DNA of 21,596 nt. Origin: a virus. The translations under genes were made by a program, and so were the position numbers. The stretch is from positions 1 through 21,596 of the IMG/VR virus record IMGVR_UViG_3300031566_000432; one strand, given 5' to 3'. Below the pieces are notes generated by a model. The model ran no database searches, had not been told where the DNA came from, and saw only the letters and a list, made by a program, of their open reading frames with translations. This document shows, piece after piece, positions 3,540 to 18,500 of this stretch. Each line of letters opens with the position of its first letter. Position 1 is the stretch's first letter.

Positions 3540-6412
3540 CAGGTGCGCTTCCGGATGTTGTTGCGGTAGGCGGCCAGCTCTTTCTTCGTTTCCTTCGTAT
3601 CGAGCTCGACATGGAAGTGGATGTTCTTCCCGACCCCGTGGAGCACGGCTTCGTAGCCGGGAGGCAGGCGCTTCTTCAGCGACTTGATGACCGTCCTACG
3701 CTGACTGACCGTAAGGTCATGCGCGCGCACGTCGAACGCGTAGCCAAGCGGGTGGAAGTTCTTGTCCTTCTCGCCCGTGAGCGGGTTGTACTCGCGAACG
3801 CCCTCGGTCATAACGAACGGGACGTTGAACTCCTTCAGCACCGCGGACACGACGTGCAGGCCCGGGGTCATCTTCCCGCTGATGCCGCGGTTCGCGCCCG
3901 TCTTTACCGAGAAGTCCGGAAGCAACTCTTGCGACTCGGTGCCGGGGTCAGGCTCGACCGGGATGAGCCCGCCGCGCGGCTCGTCCTGTACCGGCACCGA
4001 GCCGGGCGGGGCCTCTTCGTTGGGCGCGTGGCGCGGCGTGAGCATCTCCGCGATGAACTGCGCGACCTGATGCTTCACCTCGATGCCACGCGCAGCAGCC
4101 TCCGCGAACGCGTTCGCACGCTTCAGCTCGCTCTCGCTCGAGATGCTCACGGCCGTCGCTACCAGATCCATCGTGTCTCCCGGCATAGAGAGGATCACGT
4201 CGCGCATGAGGTCCGTCTGCGCCATCTGGCTCTTCGCGAGGTCACGGCTCACGGCGTCCACTTCTTTGCCGACAAACCGAGCGACGCGTGCCATGACGTG
4301 CTTCGTGTAGATCGCCTTCGCGCGACCGGATTCACCGGGCTTCACCGTGCCGTCGCTTGCGACGATGTTCGCCAGTGCCATCTGGTCGGCGATCTCCGCT
4401 CGGGCCACCTTCGCGGCATCGATCTCGGCCATCCGCCCGGGACCGACTCGCTCCTCTTCGAGTACGCGGGAGGCGTCGAGCGCGAGCTTGTCGGGGCTCG
4501 TCTCCCAGTCTGGCGACCAAGTGATCAGCCCGTTGTCGTTCGGGTCCATCGCGGGGAGGCCTTCGAACATCACCGTGTACTGCGGCGACGGCCCTTCAAG
4601 GTACGACATCGCGTCCGCGCGGATCCGGATCTGATCCAACGTCAACTCTGGCATGTTGAGGCGGATTCGCATGTCGTGGAGCAGTTGACGCTCATGCCAG
4701 CCATACGGAGCCCCGGGTGCCTTGTAGACGTTCTCCACCGGACGTGCGGTCCACTGCTCTTCGCCGCCCGTTCCTGTCTTCGTCTTCCCAAAGTTGTTCT
4801 CGATCTCGGTCAGCATGACCTGGATCGGGGTCTCGATGTTCCCGTCGCCAGCGAGCAGGTAGTTCTCGCGCCCCGCTGCAATCATCGCGGCGCGCATCGC
4901 CTCCGGGACGGTTGGGTCGAACCACCAGCTTTGATCGCTCCAGTCGTCGATCGCCTTGTTGAACTCGTCCGCGAGCTTGTCTCTCTTCCACCGCCCATCG
5001 AGATGCTCGCGCAGGGTGGGGGCCTGCTTCATTGCCTCCAGCGCGCGGGCGACGGCCTGCGTCGGCGGCGCACCTCCGGCGAGGTAGTTGCTGATGATTC
5101 CCAACTTGGTCTGGTCGTCCTTGCTGAACGAGCGGGCCACCGCTATCCGGTTCTGGGCGGAGAGCTTCTCGAACAGGCTCGCGGTCTGGGCAAGAGTTTG
5201 CGGGTCATTCGATGCCGCGCCGTTCTTCATCTCACCTTCGAGAGTCTTCGGGAGAACGGTGACACGCTCGACCATCTTCGAGATTTCTGCGTCGATCTTG
5301 TTGAGCATCTCGCTCGCCTCGGCGCGCTGCTCGTCCGTCCTCGCGCGATTGACTGCGCCGATCGCCTCCTTCCTGCGCGACGCGTAGAGCAGGTTGTAGG
5401 CGTCGTCGTACTGGTTCTTGAAGTCCGGGTGATCGATGTTCATCACGACGCCGGGCTTCCCGTTCATCACGTCGACGAGGATGCTTCGAAAATCGACGTG
5501 GCGCTTGTAGGCGGCGGTCCTGGCCGCGAGCTGCCCGACGTAGGTCAGGTATTTGTCGTCATCGATCAGGCCGTCCTCGAATGCCTCGCGGATGTAGTCG
5601 TAGGTGCCCTGCGCGGTCAGGTCGGTCACCTCTCGGATGTCCGACTCGATCTTTTCGCGGACAGGCCACGCTGCCTTCTCTCGTTCCTGAATCGCCGCGC
5701 GATTCGCGACTCCGGATGCGGTCGCTCGTGTCGATGGATCCACGTTCTGGTAGGGCCCGTTGGGGTCCAGTAGGCGCTCGTGCGCGCCCTGCGGATCGCT
5801 CTGGATGTCGAGCCCGATCCGCTCGGTCTCGGCGGTCTCGATGAACTCGCGAATCATCTGCTCCTGGGCGGCGGGGTCGAGTCCGGAGTTCCGGATGTAT
5901 GCAATCGCGTCATGGCGCGCGAGCTCGCGCGTTTCATCGGTGTCGGCGCTGGCATACAGGCGAACAGAGCCTTCGACATAGCCCTTGGTCTGCTCGTTCT
6001 CCAGATCGCGTTCTCGCTTGATCGCCGCCAGACTGTTGGCCGAAGCGGCCGCCTGGAAGCGGCGCTGCATGCGAGCGCCAACCTCGCCTTGAACGGCGGG
6101 GCTCCCGATGCGACCCACGAGATCTTCGATTCCAGCCTGATAATCGGTGGCGAAGGCCTCGTCGTCTGCGTCCGGGCCCGCTCTGGCGTGCGCTTCCACC
6201 TGCTCGGAGTGGAACTGCATCGCCTCCGCTTCGGCCGCGTTGAAGTCCTTCTGCAATTCTTCGGCGCGCTTCTGCCTGTGCTCCTGCTGGGCCCGAGCGA
6301 TCAGGGGGTCCACGGCGCGCTGCGTCGCCGCGGCTCGACGGGGGCCGCTTCGCACGTTGGGCAGAACGACCCGAATGCCGCCTTGGCTCGTGTTCGTGGG
6401 GATGCTGGGCAT
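3539..6412 (-). CDS. Internal core protein, T7 gp15-like, with C-terminal M15-like peptidase domain
   Basis: 957 residues, with ATG at 6412 in a TGATG overlap with the upstream gene. The first ~830 residues are mostly charged alpha-helix, with coiled-coil-like stretches near residues 35-75 and 125-145, as expected for an internal core protein. An acidic Pro/Gly-rich linker (about 805-840) leads to a compact C-terminal domain. This has TEGVREYNP, then H887-x-x-G-x-A-x-D894 (FHPLGYAFD), E921 and H932-F-H934. That spacing matches the HxxGxAxD...HxH zinc-site pattern of M15-type peptidases that cleave peptidoglycan peptides. T7 gp15 is about 750 residues and has no such domain. I infer that the virion carries this enzyme to open the cell wall during DNA ejection. 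Peptidase family assignment is by motif only; the core-protein role rests mainly on gene order. Confidence 0.88.
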   Translation of the reverse strand: MPSIPTNTSQGGIRVVLPNVRSGPRRAAATQRAVDPLIARAQQEHRQKRAEELQKDFNAAEAEAMQFHSEQVEAHARAGPDADDEAFATDYQAGIEDLVGRIGSPAVQGEVGARMQRRFQAAASANSLAAIKRERDLENEQTKGYVEGSVRLYASADTDETRELARHDAIAYIRNSGLDPAAQEQMIREFIETAETERIGLDIQSDPQGAHERLLDPNGPYQNVDPSTRATASGVANRAAIQEREKAAWPVREKIESDIREVTDLTAQGTYDYIREAFEDGLIDDDKYLTYVGQLAARTAAYKRHVDFRSILVDVMNGKPGVVMNIDHPDFKNQYDDAYNLLYASRRKEAIGAVNRARTDEQRAEASEMLNKIDAEISKMVERVTVLPKTLEGEMKNGAASNDPQTLAQTASLFEKLSAQNRIAVARSFSKDDQTKLGIISNYLAGGAPPTQAVARALEAMKQAPTLREHLDGRWKRDKLADEFNKAIDDWSDQSWWFDPTVPEAMRAAMIAAGRENYLLAGDGNIETPIQVMLTEIENNFGKTKTGTGGEEQWTARPVENVYKAPGAPYGWHERQLLHDMRIRLNMPELTLDQIRIRADAMSYLEGPSPQYTVMFEGLPAMDPNDNGLITWSPDWETSPDKLALDASRVLEEERVGPGRMAEIDAAKVARAEIADQMALANIVASDGTVKPGESGRAKAIYTKHVMARVARFVGKEVDAVSRDLAKSQMAQTDLMRDVILSMPGDTMDLVATAVSISSESELKRANAFAEAAARGIEVKHQVAQFIAEMLTPRHAPNEEAPPGSVPVQDEPRGGLIPVEPDPGTESQELLPDFSVKTGANRGISGKMTPGLHVVSAVLKEFNVPFVMTEGVREYNPLTGEKDKNFHPLGYAFDVRAHDLTVSQRRTVIKSLKKRLPPGYEAVLHGVGKNIHFHVELDTKETKKELAAYRNNIRKRT

Positions 6413-10300: not shown

Positions 10301-10801
10301 CGTCGCGTTCAGATCGGTCGTCGCCATCACGAGCGTCGGGGGGAGGACGGCGTAGTAGTCCGTTGCGCCAAGCAGCCCGGCCGGAATCGTTCCCGTGCTC
10401 GTGATCTGGTACGGGCCGTCCTGATCGTTCAAGCCGTGCCCCGCGAACTCGATCTCGTCCGCTACGTCCGCGATGTCCGGGGCGGGGATCGGGGACAACG
10501 TCTGGAACGGCAGGTACCCCTCGTTGCGGAAGATCCGGACGTAGAGATCTCCGAATTCGAGGATGTAGGCCTGCTCGTCGCTGTAGATGAACGGGACGAG
10601 CCGAGTCCTCTTCGCTGAGTTCTTCACCTCGGCGACGTATCGAGTTCCAGACCGGCGGGTGACCGCTCCGTGTGGCGTGATCGACAAGTTCAGCAGTTGA
10701 CGCGCCGCGCGCGCGTACTTGTCGAGCTCCGTTCGGCCGTACATCCGCGGAGACCACTCGCCCGCGTTGAAGCTGTTCTGGATCGGCGTCGATCTTGCCA
10801 T
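7343..10801 (-). CDS. Tail nozzle/hub protein, T7 gp12-like (tail tubular protein B), enlarged
   Basis: 1152 residues, ATG at 10801 joined to the previous stop as TGATG. The N-terminus has NSFNAGEWSPRMYGRTELDK and then LLNLSITPHGAVTRRSGTRY (about residues 9-55). This is the signature opening of podovirus nozzle proteins, which form the hexameric tube below the adaptor ring. The rest is beta-rich, with FEQRLWWAANHGSPQTIW (616-633) and a tail of repeated DVLADGVVVDD-type strands. T7 gp12 is 794 residues; the extra length here is largely five copies of a ~60-residue module (see separate repeat entry) placed between the expected hub blocks. It probably forms the distal tail and may carry surface-exposed decorations. 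The family assignment is strong; the module function is unknown. Confidence 0.93.
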   Translation of the reverse strand: MARSTPIQNSFNAGEWSPRMYGRTELDKYARAARQLLNLSITPHGAVTRRSGTRYVAEVKNSAKRTRLVPFIYSDEQAYILEFGDLYVRIFRNEGYLPFQTLSPIPAPDIADVADEIEFAGHGLNDQDGPYQITSTGTIPAGLLGATDYYAVLPPTLVMATTDLNATTDLFTSTAHGLSDQMGPFRLSSNITTPTGLLRSTDYYVVYVDLNTFRLSLNPGGGAVDFTDVGVGLLTMTPTVAYKRDRMRLSLAPGGAAEDITDAGTGTHTLTPVGAGLTTPIEVMTPYIEADLPLLSFAQSADVLYIAHENYEPRKLSRYSPHGFSLEVIDFADGPYLAENTTDTVIVPDAVSGNEITLTASKAIFTGNDVGRPYRYRSTNGGSAVHWGWGKILAVNPIIFTDGDIEGHDFNAAHVFAGAAGYIDIGVNHGMDTGELVRVLEYGTLPNGLAEATDYYVRADSAQRWGFFPTKADAILDTNRIDPDPGGTAAGVPCGRITSSVIDIVSHGYTGGDGPVTLSNSGGGLPAGLAGGTDYYIGFVATDALTLSLSKGGTPKGIDDNQGGGTHTMSSATVPFSSAQASVEGELANTDAKTTWRLGAWGADPALKFPRAVTFFEQRLWWAANHGSPQTIWSSKSGDFENHAPTGFSSDDPTDLDDDVAADNAISYAIGANDVNVINWFAPVTSLLLGTQSRTWNAAAALQGDAIAPANIQVRPGAQKGASSLSPLAVDNRAIYVSATGRRVHSIGYTADSETFSAEDLTLLADHVTKSGVTDMAYANEPWSTVWCVRQDGIMAALALIRDQDISGWSRHQVGGAFVAAYSMTIVASTDVSIAADTVTEVAHGLLDGQRVRWLASGATLPAPFVDNKDYYVRAVDADTLSFHPTAFDAANDTNRIDITTVGSGSPTLGAATNAQVESVAVIPSPAGVQSPGARANVNHDQVWLVVRRTINGVTKRYVEFIEDEFDDDDLTVDAYMVDGGLSRDDTATTSISGLLHLAGEFVDVLADGVVVDDVQVSVGGVVTLVDAAEKVHVGLHYDSDFQGMRLEIPSRSGSTQGRNKRIDHIVLRLNATLGLSFGPDEQSLENLGPKLLPASLRLDTVATPFTGDIEVAFDAGWETHGEVFIRQDRPLPFTLVALLPALQTADRGNRQ
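8087..10444 (-). repeat. Five diverged protein modules of ~60 residues inside the tail hub gene
   Basis: The module pattern is HGL-x-D-x-(D/Q)GP-V/F-x-L ... LPAGL-x-x-x-TDYYV ... D-x-x-(T/L)-x-x-LS ... I-x-D-x-G-x-GT-x-T. Copies: residues 120-152 (10444-10346, lacking its second half), 176-236 (10276-10094), 429-488 (9517-9338), 507-570 (9283-9092) and 844-905 (8272-8087). An extra second half alone, MRLSLAPGG...ITDAGTGTHTLTP, lies at residues 247-272 (about 10063-9986). TDYY or KDYY is kept in every full copy. The copies are diverged at DNA level. They are probably small beta domains inserted into hub loops; that structure is inference. Confidence 0.85.
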
Positions 10802-12645
10802 CAGCTCACCACCCGGCTGCGCCGGATTCTGCCTCGGGCCCGTTCCCAGGCTCCGGGGAGTTCCTCTTCCTCATCTCGGAATTTCGGCTCCTGGCCGTTC
10901 GCCGATGCGGCGATGGCCCACAGCTTCTCCCATTTCCGCAATACGGCCTCTAGCTTACCGGAGTCGCCCGTAATGGCCTCAACCGTGTCGAGCGCGAGCA
11001 TCGCGGCAAAAACATCCCTGAATTGGGCGTCCATCTCCATGGGGTCCGTGATCCGCATCGTGTAGAGGATGTCGAGCGGGGCCGTGAGGTTCGTGATGAT
11101 CTTCCGGCCCTCGACCCGGTACGGGAGGCGGTGCGGATTGTCGACATCGATCAACCGCAGACAGTCGTTCGGGAGTGTGAATTGCCGCGCGAACTCGAAG
11201 AGCGGGACATCGACATCCGCCGCGAGTCGCGCCCGGTTCGTTGCGAAGTTCCACGGCACCGAGCGCAGCAATTCGTCGCGGACCTCGTCGAACCGCTCGT
11301 TCAGGATCCGGGCCGCCTTGCTCTCTGCCTCGAGGCTCTCGATCCGGCGCTCGCCCATGCAGATGAGCGCAGCGTTGGCGATCGAGGTCTCTGACGGATC
11401 ACGCAGGTCCGCCCCAGGCGGCGGGACGACCGGCGGAATCGGCCCCGGTGGCGACACGGCCGGCGGATCCCAGTCGATCGTGAGCACGACGCCCAATAGA
11501 CCCTCGGCCGTCACCGTTCCGTTCGACGAACTGTTGATCTGCCGACGCGAGTTCGTGAGCCCCGTAGACTCGGCAAGCCGGATCGCGATCCGTTGCGACA
11601 GCGAGGTGCGCGCGCGCAACGCGATCTGGAGATCCTCCGCAAGCTTGTCCGTCAGGGTGAACACGGGGACACCCGAGTAGCCCGACGTTCCGTAGACGTA
11701 GACGGTGCCTGCGGTGTGGGCCGGCGAGGTGACGAGGTTCCCCGTCCCGGCCTTGGCCGCCGCCTTCAAGTCGGGAGCGCGCCACAGGAATTGCATCGTC
11801 GGGTGCAGGCCATCGAGCGGTTTCCCCAGTTGCGCGCCGATGCGGTAGTTCTCGCCCAGCCCGGGATACGGGCCCGCGCGCGCCGAGAAGCTCAGGGTGG
11901 CCCCCGCCGAGCCGCGGAAGCGCTTCTCCAAGAAGTACCGGGTGCCGGCCGTCACGGTGTTGCCCGGGCTGAAGCTCGTCGCCTCGAAGTAGTCGCTAGG
12001 CCCGGCCGGGATGTCCGTAATAGCGGCCCACGGGGTCTCCCCGATCAGCGCGCCGGGGCCCCACGCTCTGAAGCTGCCGTCCGCGAGATACAGCAGGTTC
12101 TTATGCGTCCCACCCGTCCCGCCGACCCGCGTCAGCGCGCCCCAGTAGATGCCCGTGACGTTTCCGGAAGTGCTGCAGACGAATGACTGCCCGATCGAGT
12201 CCACGACGGACGGGAACTCCGGCACAGGGATCGGCTGTAGGGTGAACAGATGTGTGTAGTCCGCGACGTTGCTGTTCTGCACCCACAGCGACGCTCCAAA
12301 CGCGCCTTCCATGATCCGGATCGACAGGAGGTCGTTGATGTAGCCCTCGTCATGAATGTCAAAGCGCCGGTCGAGCGCGAGCACATCGATGTTAGGGTTG
12401 TTCGCGATGGCACTCGTTACCGCGGAACGAACGCGGATCATCGCGTCGTTCACGATCACGTCGCCGAGTCCGATCCCACTCGTATCGAGGATCACGACGA
12501 TTCCCCGAGTGGCTGGGCTCTTGCCGCCTCCCGTGCCGTAGCTAATCGACGTTCCGCGCACGAGGTTGAACGAGTCCTCGTCGTACTCAACGTCGTTGTA
12601 CGGGTCGCTGATCGACCCCGCCGCGCTCAGGTGAATCTCGGGCAC
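10801..12645 (-). CDS. Fusion: beta-rich appendage domain + second tail adaptor (T7 gp11-like)
   Basis: 614 residues. The start is a GTG at 12645 directly after the previous gene's TAG, with AAGGGAG nine bases upstream. Residues 1-392 are beta-rich. RGIVVILDTSGIGLGDVIVN (47-66) and VPVFTLTDKLAEDLQ (326-340) resemble the two ends of a DNRLRE-like beta-sandwich. The stretch between (about 145-242: DSIGQSFVCSTSGNVTGIYW ... TVTAGTRYFLEKRF) looks like an inserted jelly-roll. A Pro-rich linker (PPAVSPPGPIPPVVPPPG, 394-411) joins residues 415-600, which are clearly paralogous to the adaptor encoded at 13155-13772: both have PSETSIANAALI, SWNFAT/PWNFAT, YRVEGRK and EAITGD. The adaptor half should sit in the ring under the portal, so the N-terminal part would project as an appendage, possibly a receptor-binding one. 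That last step is inference. Confidence 0.88.
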   Translation of the reverse strand: MPEIHLSAAGSISDPYNDVEYDEDSFNLVRGTSISYGTGGGKSPATRGIVVILDTSGIGLGDVIVNDAMIRVRSAVTSAIANNPNIDVLALDRRFDIHDEGYINDLLSIRIMEGAFGASLWVQNSNVADYTHLFTLQPIPVPEFPSVVDSIGQSFVCSTSGNVTGIYWGALTRVGGTGGTHKNLLYLADGSFRAWGPGALIGETPWAAITDIPAGPSDYFEATSFSPGNTVTAGTRYFLEKRFRGSAGATLSFSARAGPYPGLGENYRIGAQLGKPLDGLHPTMQFLWRAPDLKAAAKAGTGNLVTSPAHTAGTVYVYGTSGYSGVPVFTLTDKLAEDLQIALRARTSLSQRIAIRLAESTGLTNSRRQINSSSNGTVTAEGLLGVVLTIDWDPPAVSPPGPIPPVVPPPGADLRDPSETSIANAALICMGERRIESLEAESKAARILNERFDEVRDELLRSVPWNFATNRARLAADVDVPLFEFARQFTLPNDCLRLIDVDNPHRLPYRVEGRKIITNLTAPLDILYTMRITDPMEMDAQFRDVFAAMLALDTVEAITGDSGKLEAVLRKWEKLWAIAASANGQEPKFRDEEEELPGAWERARGRIRRSRVVS

Positions 12646-13158
12646 CTAGCGTCGCTCCCTTGGCAGGATGCGCCGCGCGAGCGCGCGGTATTTGATGTCC
12701 GCGTCTTTCAAACCCTTCGAGCGCGAGAACCGCACGGTCCTTCCGTCCGCGAGCTCGAAATCGTTGTCGAGCATCCAGTCGTGAACCCGGCGCGCAAGTT
12801 CCCAGTCGAATGGGGGGGCGTCCGGGCTGTGCCGCTCCTCGATCTCGGGGAGGCCGTACCCGCTGATCGCCTCGAAGGTCCGAGGCGTCAAGAACTCGAC
12901 CTCCATGAGCAGCCACGCACCGTAGATCTCCGGACTGCCACCCTTGTAGACCGCGAAGTACGCGAAGTCGTCGCAATCCTCCTCGCACCAGTTCGGGCTG
13001 AAGTCGCGTAGCTCGCTGCGGGCCAGAATCCGGTTGGTGACGCGGCGGAACAGCCGGCGGGCCCGAACCTCCTCGCGCGGCCGCCAGGGTCCGGTGTGGG
13101 AGAAGCGGAGCGCGCCCTCGCCGCGCCCAATCGTGAAATCCTTGAACCGCGGGATCAC
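12646..13158 (-). CDS. Unrecognised 170-residue protein between two adaptor genes
   Basis: Start is a GTG at 13158 overlapping the upstream stop as GTGA; the TAG stop directly abuts the next gene's GTG. The protein is compact, charged and aromatic-rich, with a CEEDC pair (C58, C62) in an acidic patch (NWCEEDCDDFAYFAVYKGG) and a C-terminal helical part with RRVHDWMLDN and KYRALARRILPRERR. No signal peptide or membrane segment is seen. The HDW plus later ALARR pattern is faintly like the end of DUF1353-type phage proteins, but the rest does not fit, so I assign no function. Its placement between the plain adaptor and the fused adaptor, with coupled translation on both sides, suggests it acts in tail assembly. 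Confidence 0.82.
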   Translation of the reverse strand: MIPRFKDFTIGRGEGALRFSHTGPWRPREEVRARRLFRRVTNRILARSELRDFSPNWCEEDCDDFAYFAVYKGGSPEIYGAWLLMEVEFLTPRTFEAISGYGLPEIEERHSPDAPPFDWELARRVHDWMLDNDFELADGRTVRFSRSKGLKDADIKYRALARRILPRERR

Positions 13159-13772
13159 AGCGGTGTTCCGACCCCAGTCGGGACGTTGCGGACGAAGCCC
13201 TGCTCCTCACGGGCGTCGAGCCATTCGGAAGCCTCGAGATGCCTGGGACTCGGCTCCTGCCCGTCTGGCTGGCGGGATTTCGCGATCTTCTCGTTTCGCA
13301 TCGACATGAGTGTGGCGACCTTCTGGTCGTCGCCCGTGATCGCCTCGCAGATGTCCGCCGCGAGCGCCGCCGCGAGCGCCTGCCGGAACATCACGTCCAT
13401 CACGAGAGGGTCGGTGACCCGCGCGGTGTACTCGATGTTGATCGGCGTTCCCATGTCGGTGAGGACCTTCCGCCCCTCGACCCGGTACGGGTACTTCGAA
13501 CGGTTTTCCACGTCGAGCAGCCGCAGGCAGTCACTCGGGAGGGTGTACTGGCGATCGAATCCCCAGAGCGGGGCCGCGACATCCGCCGCGAGCTGGGCGC
13601 GCTTCGTGGCGAAGTTCCACGAGTGCGACCGCAGCAGGTCGTCGCGCACCTCCGCGTACCGGTCGTTCACGAGCGTCGAGGTCTTGTCGGTGCCGGAGAT
13701 GGATTCGATGCGCTGCTCGCCCAGCAGGATGAGGGCGGCGTTCGCGATCGAGGTTTCGGACGGAGTCGACAT
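13155..13772 (-). CDS. Tail adaptor / gatekeeper, T7 gp11-like (tail tubular protein A)
   Basis: 205 residues from the ATG at 13772. This start is preferred over an ATG six codons upstream because GGAGG lies 6 bases before it. The sequence TPSETSIANAALILLGEQRI, then VRDDLLRSHSWNFATKRAQL, then DCLRLLDVEN, YRVEGRK and a helical C-terminal part is typical of the podovirus adaptor that forms a dodecameric ring between portal and nozzle. T7 gp11 is 196 residues, so the length fits. The gene heads the tail block, about 70 bases after the head decoration gene, and is preceded by a strong hairpin. A second, fused copy of the same domain is encoded 0.5 kb downstream; more than half of the aligned residues look identical by eye. 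Confidence 0.9.
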   Translation of the reverse strand: MSTPSETSIANAALILLGEQRIESISGTDKTSTLVNDRYAEVRDDLLRSHSWNFATKRAQLAADVAAPLWGFDRQYTLPSDCLRLLDVENRSKYPYRVEGRKVLTDMGTPINIEYTARVTDPLVMDVMFRQALAAALAADICEAITGDDQKVATLMSMRNEKIAKSRQPDGQEPSPRHLEASEWLDAREEQGFVRNVPTGVGTPL

Positions 13773-13842: not shown

Positions 13843-14397
13843 TCAGTTGCCACCCGAGGTGTAGACCGCCTCGAGCACGTACTCGGAAGCCACGATTCCG
13901 ACCTCTGCCGAGATCGTCATCGCGATGTCGAACGAATCCGGTGCGTCTTCGAGCGAGCCATAGTTCGATGCCCCGAGATTCGACATGACCCAGAGGGCCT
14001 TGCTGCGGGCCTCGTTCGGGATCGTCCCTTCGGCCGTCAGCACGTCCACGCGCGCGATGGCCGCCGTGATGTCGATCATCGGGGAGGTCCCGACCGCGCA
14101 GAAGAGGTTGATGTCGACCAGAGCGCCGCCCTCCCCCAGGTACAGACCGAAATCGCCGGCCGCCGAGGTCGACGCGTCTGCCGCGTGCGACAGGTACAGG
14201 TGAATGAGCCGGTCGCTCTTCTTCATCGTGAAGAAGCGCACCACGTCCCCGGCCGCAGTGGCGGTGGTGACCGTCGCCGTGGCCCGCTTGTACCGCAGGG
14301 TCGCGTGGTTCCGGCCCGGCGTGACCTTGATGCGTGGGTCCGAAATCGACGAAGAGGAGACGGTGTCGTTGTAATGATCGGAATAGAGGTCGGCCAT
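13843..14397 (-). CDS. Probable head decoration / capsid-associated protein
   Basis: 184 residues, ATG at 14397 with a strong AAGGAG 8 bases upstream. The protein is beta-rich and small-residue-rich. Recognisable blocks are HATLRYKRATATVTTATAAGD (about 31-51), MKKSDRLIHLYLSHAAD (58-74), GDFGLYLGEGGALVDINLF (81-99) and a C-terminal AMTISAEVGIVASEYVLEAV. No signal peptide or membrane segment is present. I do not recognise a named family. Location immediately downstream of the major capsid gene, with its own strong ribosome binding site, and the beta-rich composition suit a decoration or capsid-stabilising protein. This role is inference. Confidence 0.85.
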   Translation of the reverse strand: MADLYSDHYNDTVSSSSISDPRIKVTPGRNHATLRYKRATATVTTATAAGDVVRFFTMKKSDRLIHLYLSHAADASTSAAGDFGLYLGEGGALVDINLFCAVGTSPMIDITAAIARVDVLTAEGTIPNEARSKALWVMSNLGASNYGSLEDAPDSFDIAMTISAEVGIVASEYVLEAVYTSGGN

Positions 14398-16536: not shown

Positions 16537-16860
16537 TTATTGGGTTCGCCGCTGCGCGAGGCGGCGGCTCTCTTCGATCATCGTTCGGTCGTCCATGTGC
16601 AGGTAGTTCATCAGCTTCAGGATCACCGATCGACGGCCCTCGTTGTAGGCCGTCTGCATCGGATCGCCCTGAACGTAGCTCGGAGACACCTGCCGGCAGT
16701 AGGCCGCCAGGAAGTCGAGAACGTCCCGCCCGGACGGGCTCTCGAAGGTGGTCTTGATCAGCCCGATCATCTTGTCCAGCTCGATGTGCAGCTTGGCTGC
16801 GGCATCCAGCTCTTCCTGAGAGGGCTTCTCGTCATACCCGAGATACTCGTCCAGACTCAC
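16537..16860 (-). CDS. Bbp19-like small structural protein
   Basis: 107 residues, GTG start at 16860 overlapping the portal stop as GTGA. After an acidic helical start, it has FESPSGRDVLDFLAAYCRQ (about 39-57), then MQTAYNEGRRSVILKLMNYL (68-87). The pattern 'GR-x-VL ... C ... A-x-NEGRR-x-V-x-L' matches the Bbp19 family, small proteins encoded near the portal or scaffold gene in many podoviruses (first named in Bordetella phage BPP-1). Their exact role is not settled. It ends 12 bases before the scaffold start. Confidence 0.85.
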   Translation of the reverse strand: MSLDEYLGYDEKPSQEELDAAAKLHIELDKMIGLIKTTFESPSGRDVLDFLAAYCRQVSPSYVQGDPMQTAYNEGRRSVILKLMNYLHMDDRTMIEESRRLAQRRTQ

Positions 16861-18500
16861 GCGTTGTTGCCTTGCGATTGCGCGGCTTCGAGCGAAGCGC
16901 CCGCGCTGATCAGCTTCGCGCCCGTTTCGCCGGCCTGCATGAGCGTCTGTTGCATCTGCTGCCGCTCAGCCTCTTCGGCCTTCGCGCGGCGGATCTGGAT
17001 GACGCCGTCGCGGGAACGCATCGCCTCGACCGGCGTTCCGTTCGCCGCGTAGATCGCGCGGATGCCCTCGTCGAGGTCGACGTTGTCCATCACATCCGGG
17101 TCAGCCTGCGCCATCTGCAGCGCCGCGTTGAAGCTCTCCATGATCGCCTGTGCGTCGCCCTGCTTCTGGGCGCGGGCAACCGGGGATACGTATTCGATCT
17201 TGATCGGTTGGCCCGCCAGGAAGTCCGGGACTTCCGGGAAGTCTCCGCGCCGACTCTCGATGCCGTACACGCGAGCGATCATGGGCTCGAGCAGTTCGAC
17301 CGCGAGACGACCGAGAGTCGGCGACAGAATTCGCTGGGATTGGCGCGCGAGCTCCAGAACCTGGGTCGCGGTCATGCGAGGATCCTGAAAGGCCTGCAGG
17401 ATCTCGTGGTGAAAGGCGCGCTGGATGTTCTTCGTGCGCGACTCGATCATCTCGAAGTTCCAGTTGAGCTGACCGCGATGCTCCAGATACCGGACCGGGT
17501 CGCGCGTTCCGCCATCGTTTGCGACGACGATCTGCGCGTTCGGCGTGAGTCGCACCGAGCTGCCGGCCAGCACCGAGTCGTGATCGACGAGGACCGGCGG
17601 GTCGCTGGCCTTCTCGACGTTGCGGATGAACGTGCGCCAGATGCTGTTGAGCATCTTCTGGTCGGGGAGCGAGTCGACGCCGGGGCCGCGACCGTACAAT
17701 TCGCCCGTGTCCACCGACCAGCGCGGAACCATGTACGGGTTCTCTCGGAAGCCGCCTTCGCGGATCTTCTCCTTGCCCTTCAGCGAGATCCAGACCGACT
17801 CCCACGCCATACCCGACGCATCGATCTTCCCAGGCGTTGGCATCGCGCGCTTTCGGACGTGGTGTAGAAACTCGAATTCGCGTTCGGGGCGCTTCTCGGT
17901 GACCTTCCTGATGTCGTCCGGAGTGTCGTCCCCGAAGAATTCGACCGCCTTCCACGCCTGCAGCGAGAACTTCCGGAACACCACCACGATCTGGCCGGAG
18001 TGGTCCGTGTCGATGTACGTCTCGGCAAGCGGCCGGGAGATGAAGCGCGCTCCGATCTCCGGATCTTCTTCAATGTAGAGAACCCCCGTTCCGAATCCGG
18101 AGAGGTCTTGGTACAACTCTGCGACCTGGGTCGTGAAGCCAGACTTCGGTCGCTGGAAGGCCGTGCGGATCCGCTTCTTGACGAAGTCGAGGAAGCGGAC
18201 CGCTTCGTCCATCTCGTTCAGGATGTCCATCTCGTAACGGAGGTCGAACCAGTCGGCGGTTGCGGGGTTTGTGAGGAGCGAGTGGAGCGCGGCAGCGAGA
18301 AGATTGTTGCTGTCGCGGGAGGTCGTGTCGTAGATCCGGACGCCGCGCTGGCGTCCCGGCTCGCGCTTCGCCTGGAAGTTGCGTCGCTCGAGGCTGTAGT
18401 CCGAGATCTCCTGCCAGTGGGACTCCCAGTGGTGCCGGTCCCCTTCGAGCGTCCCGAAGTAGGTGCAGATCTTCTTCGCCTCTGCCTGGGAGATCGCCAT
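16857..18500 (-). CDS. Portal protein (head-to-tail connector, T7 gp8-like)
   Basis: 547 residues, ATG at 18500 directly after the TAG of the preceding gene. The N-terminus has HWQEISDYSLERRNFQ, then GVRIYDTTSRDSNNLLAAAL (about 53-72), then DWFDLRYE. The central region includes WSVDTGELYGRGPGVDSL and the C-terminal part DPRMTATQVLELARQSQRIL followed by LGRLAVELLEPMIARVYGI. These are the characteristic blocks of podovirus head-tail connecting proteins, which form the 12-subunit ring through which DNA is packaged and ejected. T7 gp8 is 536 residues, so length agrees. The C-terminal ~60 residues are Gln/Ala-rich and probably helical. Flanked by terminase and scaffold genes in the standard order. 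Confidence 0.95.
   Translation of the reverse strand: MAISQAEAKKICTYFGTLEGDRHHWESHWQEISDYSLERRNFQAKREPGRQRGVRIYDTTSRDSNNLLAAALHSLLTNPATADWFDLRYEMDILNEMDEAVRFLDFVKKRIRTAFQRPKSGFTTQVAELYQDLSGFGTGVLYIEEDPEIGARFISRPLAETYIDTDHSGQIVVVFRKFSLQAWKAVEFFGDDTPDDIRKVTEKRPEREFEFLHHVRKRAMPTPGKIDASGMAWESVWISLKGKEKIREGGFRENPYMVPRWSVDTGELYGRGPGVDSLPDQKMLNSIWRTFIRNVEKASDPPVLVDHDSVLAGSSVRLTPNAQIVVANDGGTRDPVRYLEHRGQLNWNFEMIESRTKNIQRAFHHEILQAFQDPRMTATQVLELARQSQRILSPTLGRLAVELLEPMIARVYGIESRRGDFPEVPDFLAGQPIKIEYVSPVARAQKQGDAQAIMESFNAALQMAQADPDVMDNVDLDEGIRAIYAANGTPVEAMRSRDGVIQIRRAKAEEAERQQMQQTLMQAGETGAKLISAGASLEAAQSQGNNA

Follow-up and report, generated by a model that had tools for sequence, protein, structure and literature searches.

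We identified a phage lineage in which a gp11-type tail adaptor is encoded twice, once as a plain protein and a second time usually as the C-terminal domain of a longer protein that carries an N-terminal module. The stretch analysed, called the window here, is the 21,596-base virus record IMGVR_UViG_3300031566_000432. Sequence comparison establishes two adaptor domains, one duplication, a conserved gene order and exchangeable N-terminal modules, and the adaptor ring probably also serves as an integral appendage for host contact. In the reading we prefer, to which we give an even chance as a whole and for which we infer the stacking, the copy number, the presence in virions and the surface binding, a single gp11-type adaptor gene would have been duplicated once in the ancestor of the clade. 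The plain copy (13,155–13,772) would form the ordinary ring of 12 subunits that is clamped to the portal. The fused copy (10,801–12,645) would form another adaptor ring, which most likely lies below the plain one and above the hexameric nozzle. Pro-rich linkers on this second ring would hold out N-terminal beta-sandwich modules, which may contact the cell surface or its polysaccharide alongside ordinary T7-type fibres.

The window was identified as a structural module. Its minus strand, on which all features described below are located, carries in order a small-terminase-like ORF, the large terminase, the portal, a scaffold-like ORF, the capsid, a 184-aa ORF, the plain adaptor, a 170-aa ORF, the fused adaptor, the nozzle, a GNAT-like protein and large internal-protein ORFs that extend past the window end. 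In profile searches, the 547-aa portal (16,857–18,500) matched Head-tail_con PF12236 (E 4e-117), the capsid PF19821 (E 6e-66), the gp12-like nozzle phrog_376 (E 3e-182) and the GNAT-like protein phrog_4177, with a weak match to phrog_308. Both adaptor genes are located between the capsid and nozzle genes with the portal upstream, which is the gene position of a gp11-type adaptor. The genes are arranged as in epsilon15, BcepC6B and Pelagibacter phage HTVC010P; the order portal, capsid, adaptor, nozzle and internal proteins is shared with epsilon15, BPP-1 and HTVC010P, but a single plain adaptor is found there. We assign the window as the structural module of an epsilon15/HTVC010P-type podophage.

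The nozzle of the window (P0004; 7,343–10,801) is 1152 aa long, whereas the nozzles of the other phages compared have about 590–855 aa. It includes at least 5 copies of a "HGL...GP...G.LP.GL...TDYYV" module of about 80–90 residues each. On contig 3300009515_000004 (L036, 3,657–6,031), four tandem diverged paralogues (22–28% identity) of the window's 184-aa protein (13,843–14,397) are placed between the capsid and the plain adaptor, and they are possibly decoration or head-fibre proteins.

Residues 417–593 of the fused protein (P0001) and residues 4–180 of the plain adaptor (P0002) align without gaps over 177 residues, with 55% identity and 72% similarity (E 4e-61). Moreover, phrog_394 (tail protein) is matched over the whole domain in both copies, at E 6e-42 for the fused and 1.5e-48 for the plain one. 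These matches confirm the duplicated gp11-type adaptor proposed in a preliminary description of this DNA, whose coordinates, lengths and shared blocks were all correct on re-check. AlphaFold2 was run on an alignment of 16 related sequences and gave a pLDDT of about 90 for the adaptor domain of the fused protein. The predicted fold, a helical bundle with a small beta-domain, matches solved adaptor rings, with the Carin-1 connector and the LME-1, PhiM1 and T7 adaptors as the top hits in the PDB. The plain copy is linked to solved adaptors by sequence profile to 8ck1/9efk.

The fused protein is 614 aa long and consists of an N-terminal module (residues 1–394; 11,464–12,645), a Pro-rich linker (residues 395–416; 11,398–11,463) and the second adaptor domain (residues 417–603; 10,837–11,397), which is modelled at high confidence over most of its length and includes an alpha1-alpha2 loop (residues 431–442; 11,320–11,355). 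The linker had been described as joining the N-terminal domain to the adaptor copy; it is indeed there, and it is present in most fused copies. The plain adaptor has 205 aa. A 170-aa ORF without a family match (12,646–13,158), a detail absent from the earlier description, separates the two adaptor genes; it has a weak match to L018 2,518–3,117, and the inter-adaptor ORFs of L004 (10,006–10,680) and L018 look related, also without a family match. From the plain adaptor to the nozzle the genes are tightly packed, with a GTGA overlap, then a stop abutting a start, then an ATGA overlap, so that the nozzle gene overlaps the stop of the fused gene. The fused gene starts with GTG, and a Shine-Dalgarno-like AAGGGAG (12,655–12,661) is located 9 bases upstream, which is a good ribosome site. 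Because weak in-frame GTG/TTG codons exist at residues 384–397, a minor free form of the second adaptor may be produced from these internal starts.

A plain adaptor together with a second copy was found in 8 distinct genomes (the window and 7 relatives): the window, grouped with the near-identical contig 3300031539_000686, L004, L003+L007 (two overlapping contigs of one genome), L012, L014, L015, L016 and L018. The contigs of L016 and L018 end inside the second copy. Further contigs (L005, L006, L013, L017, L020) contain the plain copy alone because they stop ahead of the second gene or shortly after its start. In 7 of the 8 genomes, an N-terminal module of about 280–440 residues is fused to the second copy, which is located directly before the nozzle gene in all genomes whose contigs extend far enough (6 of 6).

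The preliminary description had named a sequencing error, with the two parts as separate genes in related genomes, as another possible source of the fusion. The parts are separate in L018 alone, where a free protein of 424 aa represents the module; a 146-aa gene (4,396–4,836) comes next, and after it the second adaptor with only a short Pro-rich extension. Since a whole gene intervenes between the parts, we take L018 to be a natural rearrangement and not a sequencing error. Contig IMGVR 3300031539_000686, which is 99.96% identical to the window, has the same intact 614-aa ORF, and intact fused ORFs are also present in 6 diverged genomes. The fusion is genuine and conserved: an assembly artefact is ruled out by these independent contigs, and the chance that misassembly or a frameshift joined two genes is negligible. 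Two other apparent fused adaptors, L053 and L076, were rejected, since the part upstream of the adaptor is a shadow reading frame in both and translation starts just before the adaptor.

The N-terminal modules differ in type between genomes and include DNRLRE/CBM96-like, Ig-like and unclassified ones. For example, the L007 module contains a DNRLRE-like part (E 1e-4) and an Ig-like domain (He_PIG above the curated cut-off), and the L014 module a DNRLRE-like domain (E 5e-4), while those of L012 and L016 are unclassified. The DNRLRE/CBM96 matches stay below the curated cut-off of 34 bits (L007, 22.1; L014, 20.1), and the window has no such match. For the window module, AlphaFold2 gives a beta-sandwich in two halves, residues 43–92 (12,370–12,519; pLDDT about 55–85) and residues 302–395 (11,461–11,742; pLDDT about 50–86), with residues 92–301 at low confidence; the model of the L012 module was too low in confidence to use. 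Homologues with 26–28% identity exist in L004, L015 and the free L018 protein, and searches of phage records, PDB sequences and Pfam gave no match and no characterised relative. The N-terminal domain of the window looks like a beta-sandwich adhesion module, in part by its homologues. Host-contact parts typically vary in this way next to an anchor that is conserved, and the putative function is binding. In phages, beta-sandwich and Ig-like domains often have structural roles, and no characterised relative of the window module was found, both of which would suit a fused copy placed in a ring with a module that serves as collar, ring stabiliser or capsid contact and binds no receptor. We consider such a purely structural module unlikely, as close relatives with conserved adaptor domains differ strongly in the module, in the way host-contact parts would.

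For comparison, we scanned 158 loci with an adaptor match, some of which are overlapping pieces of the same contigs. Single-adaptor loci contain one plain adaptor with the nozzle directly after it, and in a phage collection every matching record has a single adaptor location (175 of 175). Two separate adaptor genes were found in no other phage among these 158 loci and 175 phage records, and a search of bacterial genomes returned no prophage relatives. The sole other case with two adaptor domains among the 158 loci is a 365-aa chain with tandem domains (L158, 3,571–4,668; IMGVR_UViG_3300012922_000041), which precedes the nozzle gene in another lineage. It resembles the window in having a second adaptor domain, but both domains are in one chain and there is no appendage.

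In a tree of 79 adaptor domains, the fused copies group as a single clade (98/92), and so do the plain and fused copies taken together (100/99); the support values are rough, as the bootstrap was still short of full convergence. The joint clade is separate from the single-adaptor outgroup, with the exception of L022, a row on a long branch. This sequence, which comes from a locus with one plain adaptor, falls next to the fused clade with a very long branch of 1.9, and we took its position to be a placement artefact. The simplest reading of the tree is one old duplication in the ancestor of the clade, and the phylogeny suggested earlier as a check thus bears out a duplication within the lineage.

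The plain and fused copies suggest a division of labour. Single-adaptor proteins mostly end about five residues past a conserved W-L-x-x-R. An extra tail of about 16 residues, ending in GTPL or GVPL, is present in 9 of 10 plain copies (in the window residues 190–205, ending in GTPL; 13,158–13,205), in none of 122 single-adaptor outgroup proteins and in none of the fused copies. The plain adaptor of the window retains the outgroup-conserved portal-side residues. Among the residues conserved in the outgroup, H463 is found in all 10 plain copies but in none of 8 fused copies, and D583 in 9 of 10 plain copies but in none of 6 fused copies, where it is now mostly N; N466 is kept in 2 of 8 fused copies, and P589 is among the residues lost in them. 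Most outgroup-invariant residues are still present in the fused copies, and at seven conserved positions of the alpha1-alpha2 loop 93% are kept in the fused copies compared with 87% in the plain ones. The contrast between proximal and distal loss gave p 0.025 (permutation test with 7 and 17 positions, segments chosen post hoc).

In T7 gp11, the alpha1-alpha2 loop contacts the nozzle and the C-terminal part contacts the portal (PMC6702177). The region of H463 and N466, which comes after alpha2, should be on the portal side, as estimated from helix direction and not from coordinates. Because the fused copies lose portal-end residues and keep the nozzle loop, a plain ring next to the portal and a fused ring next to the nozzle are favoured; the pattern of residue loss is a lean towards this arrangement and not a proof. 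The preliminary description had asked whether the two copies form a mixed ring or two stacked rings, which is the right question, and the sequence evidence leans to the stacked rings. Against the preferred reading, the nozzle-side loop is retained in the plain copy too, although stacking would not call for this, and the window module has no match to a known domain family and is unmodelled at residues 92–301.

The main rival to stacking is a mixed ring, a single 12-mer built from six plain subunits in alternation with six fused ones, in which six appendages stand in register with the nozzle. In T7, 12 identical gp11 subunits with two alternating loop conformations meet six gp12 subunits (PMC6702177), and two genes could fill both positions. 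Plain and fused copies of the same genome are 52.5% identical, compared with 49.4% for cross-genome pairs (p about 0.001), and the excess is strongest in the nozzle-contact loop (67.7% vs 57.4%; p 0.003 before correction for seven elements), which could come from both copies touching the same nozzle. The tandem chain of L158 also speaks for a mixed ring, as six such chains could form a 12-fold ring. However, short gene conversion or shared codon bias could explain the same-genome similarity as well: codon identity is 57% within genomes vs 51%, and identical DNA runs are 36 nt long in L004 and 24 nt in L007. The loss of conserved portal-side residues from the fused copies also argues against a mixed ring, and we know of no solved mixed adaptor ring, which we count against it. 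We regard such a ring as somewhat unlikely, and as unlikely its extension in which the duplication would have fixed the 12-to-6 symmetry step genetically, with six covalently attached adhesins in nozzle register. It is quite improbable that the fused protein is only an accessory (a fibre-docking protein, collar or assembly factor) that uses the adaptor fold merely for tail binding and has no ring role. The fused copies evolve faster than the plain ones, the L018 module is unattached to an adaptor and the separate fibres of relatives need docking, all of which such an accessory would fit; yet the fused copies retain the full adaptor fold along with the outgroup-invariant residues noted above, and the gene adjoins the nozzle gene in all contigs that extend far enough.

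Two long contigs of relatives contain separate genes for fibres whose N-termini are T7-gp17-like, one in G012 and two in G003. Their PF03906 matches are below the curated cut-off, and PHROGs tail-protein/tail-fibre matches go down to about 1e-23. The window breaks off within the gene located ahead of the fibre genes in G012 and G003. Because these two relatives also encode T7-type fibres, the fusion probably adds to the fibres and does not replace them. The proposal that the fusion is a different way of attaching receptor-binding parts was therefore too strong, and it is further weakened by adaptors fused to surface domains in cultured Vibrio phages.

In these Vibrio phages (VP2, phiVC8 and QH; Enhodamvirus), a tail protein of 741–743 aa (phrog_9239) contains a phrog_394 adaptor domain fused to surface-type domains, which in QH are Ig and Gly-rich domains, and gel and mass spectrometry detected the protein of phiVC8 in its virions (PMC4802629). 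In contrast to the window, it is the only adaptor in the genome, and the adaptor is N-terminal and the appendage C-terminal. The layout of phiVC8 ORF14 was not found in the window, where the adaptor is C-terminal, the module has no Ig match and phrog_9239 matches the adaptor part alone. The "major tail subunit" annotation of QH (L167, 4,498–6,729) covers the adaptor domain (1–189) together with the Ig and Gly-rich domains and is probably wrong. The adaptor of L162 (MW202898; 5,007–5,579) and of similar Manatee Spring records carries the label "major capsid protein", apparently a misannotation, because another gene there is annotated as putative major capsid protein.

The T7 gp11 ring shares with the window the adaptor fold, the gene place before the nozzle and the portal and nozzle partners, with fibres between adaptor and nozzle, but T7 has one adaptor gene without a fused domain (PMC6702177). 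The phage phicrAss001 encodes several paralogous adaptor-like proteins, R1–R5, in five stacked 12-mer rings, a precedent for stacked paralogous rings, and podophages outside the crassviruses were reported to have one adaptor ring of one protein (PMC10172136). The window, like phicrAss001, has at least two adaptor-fold paralogues in one genome, whereas the phicrAss001 paralogues are more diverged (15–31% identity) and its fibres dock via the separate hub proteins THA, THB and gp22. A fold search of predicted viral proteins indicated that other long proteins with an adaptor domain exist. The literature searched, which was largely without subscription papers, contained no account of an adaptor that is duplicated and has an appendage on one of its copies; the combination looks undescribed, while fusion and stacked rings each have precedent.

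This clade would represent a natural intermediate, in which one duplication left a plain copy and a copy with exchangeable surface modules. With it, the gain of extra rings or appendages by phages becomes testable, as does the way in which the 12-to-6 symmetry step can be split between two genes. For annotation, a long protein with an adaptor domain at its C-terminus, encoded immediately ahead of the nozzle gene, is likely a tail appendage.
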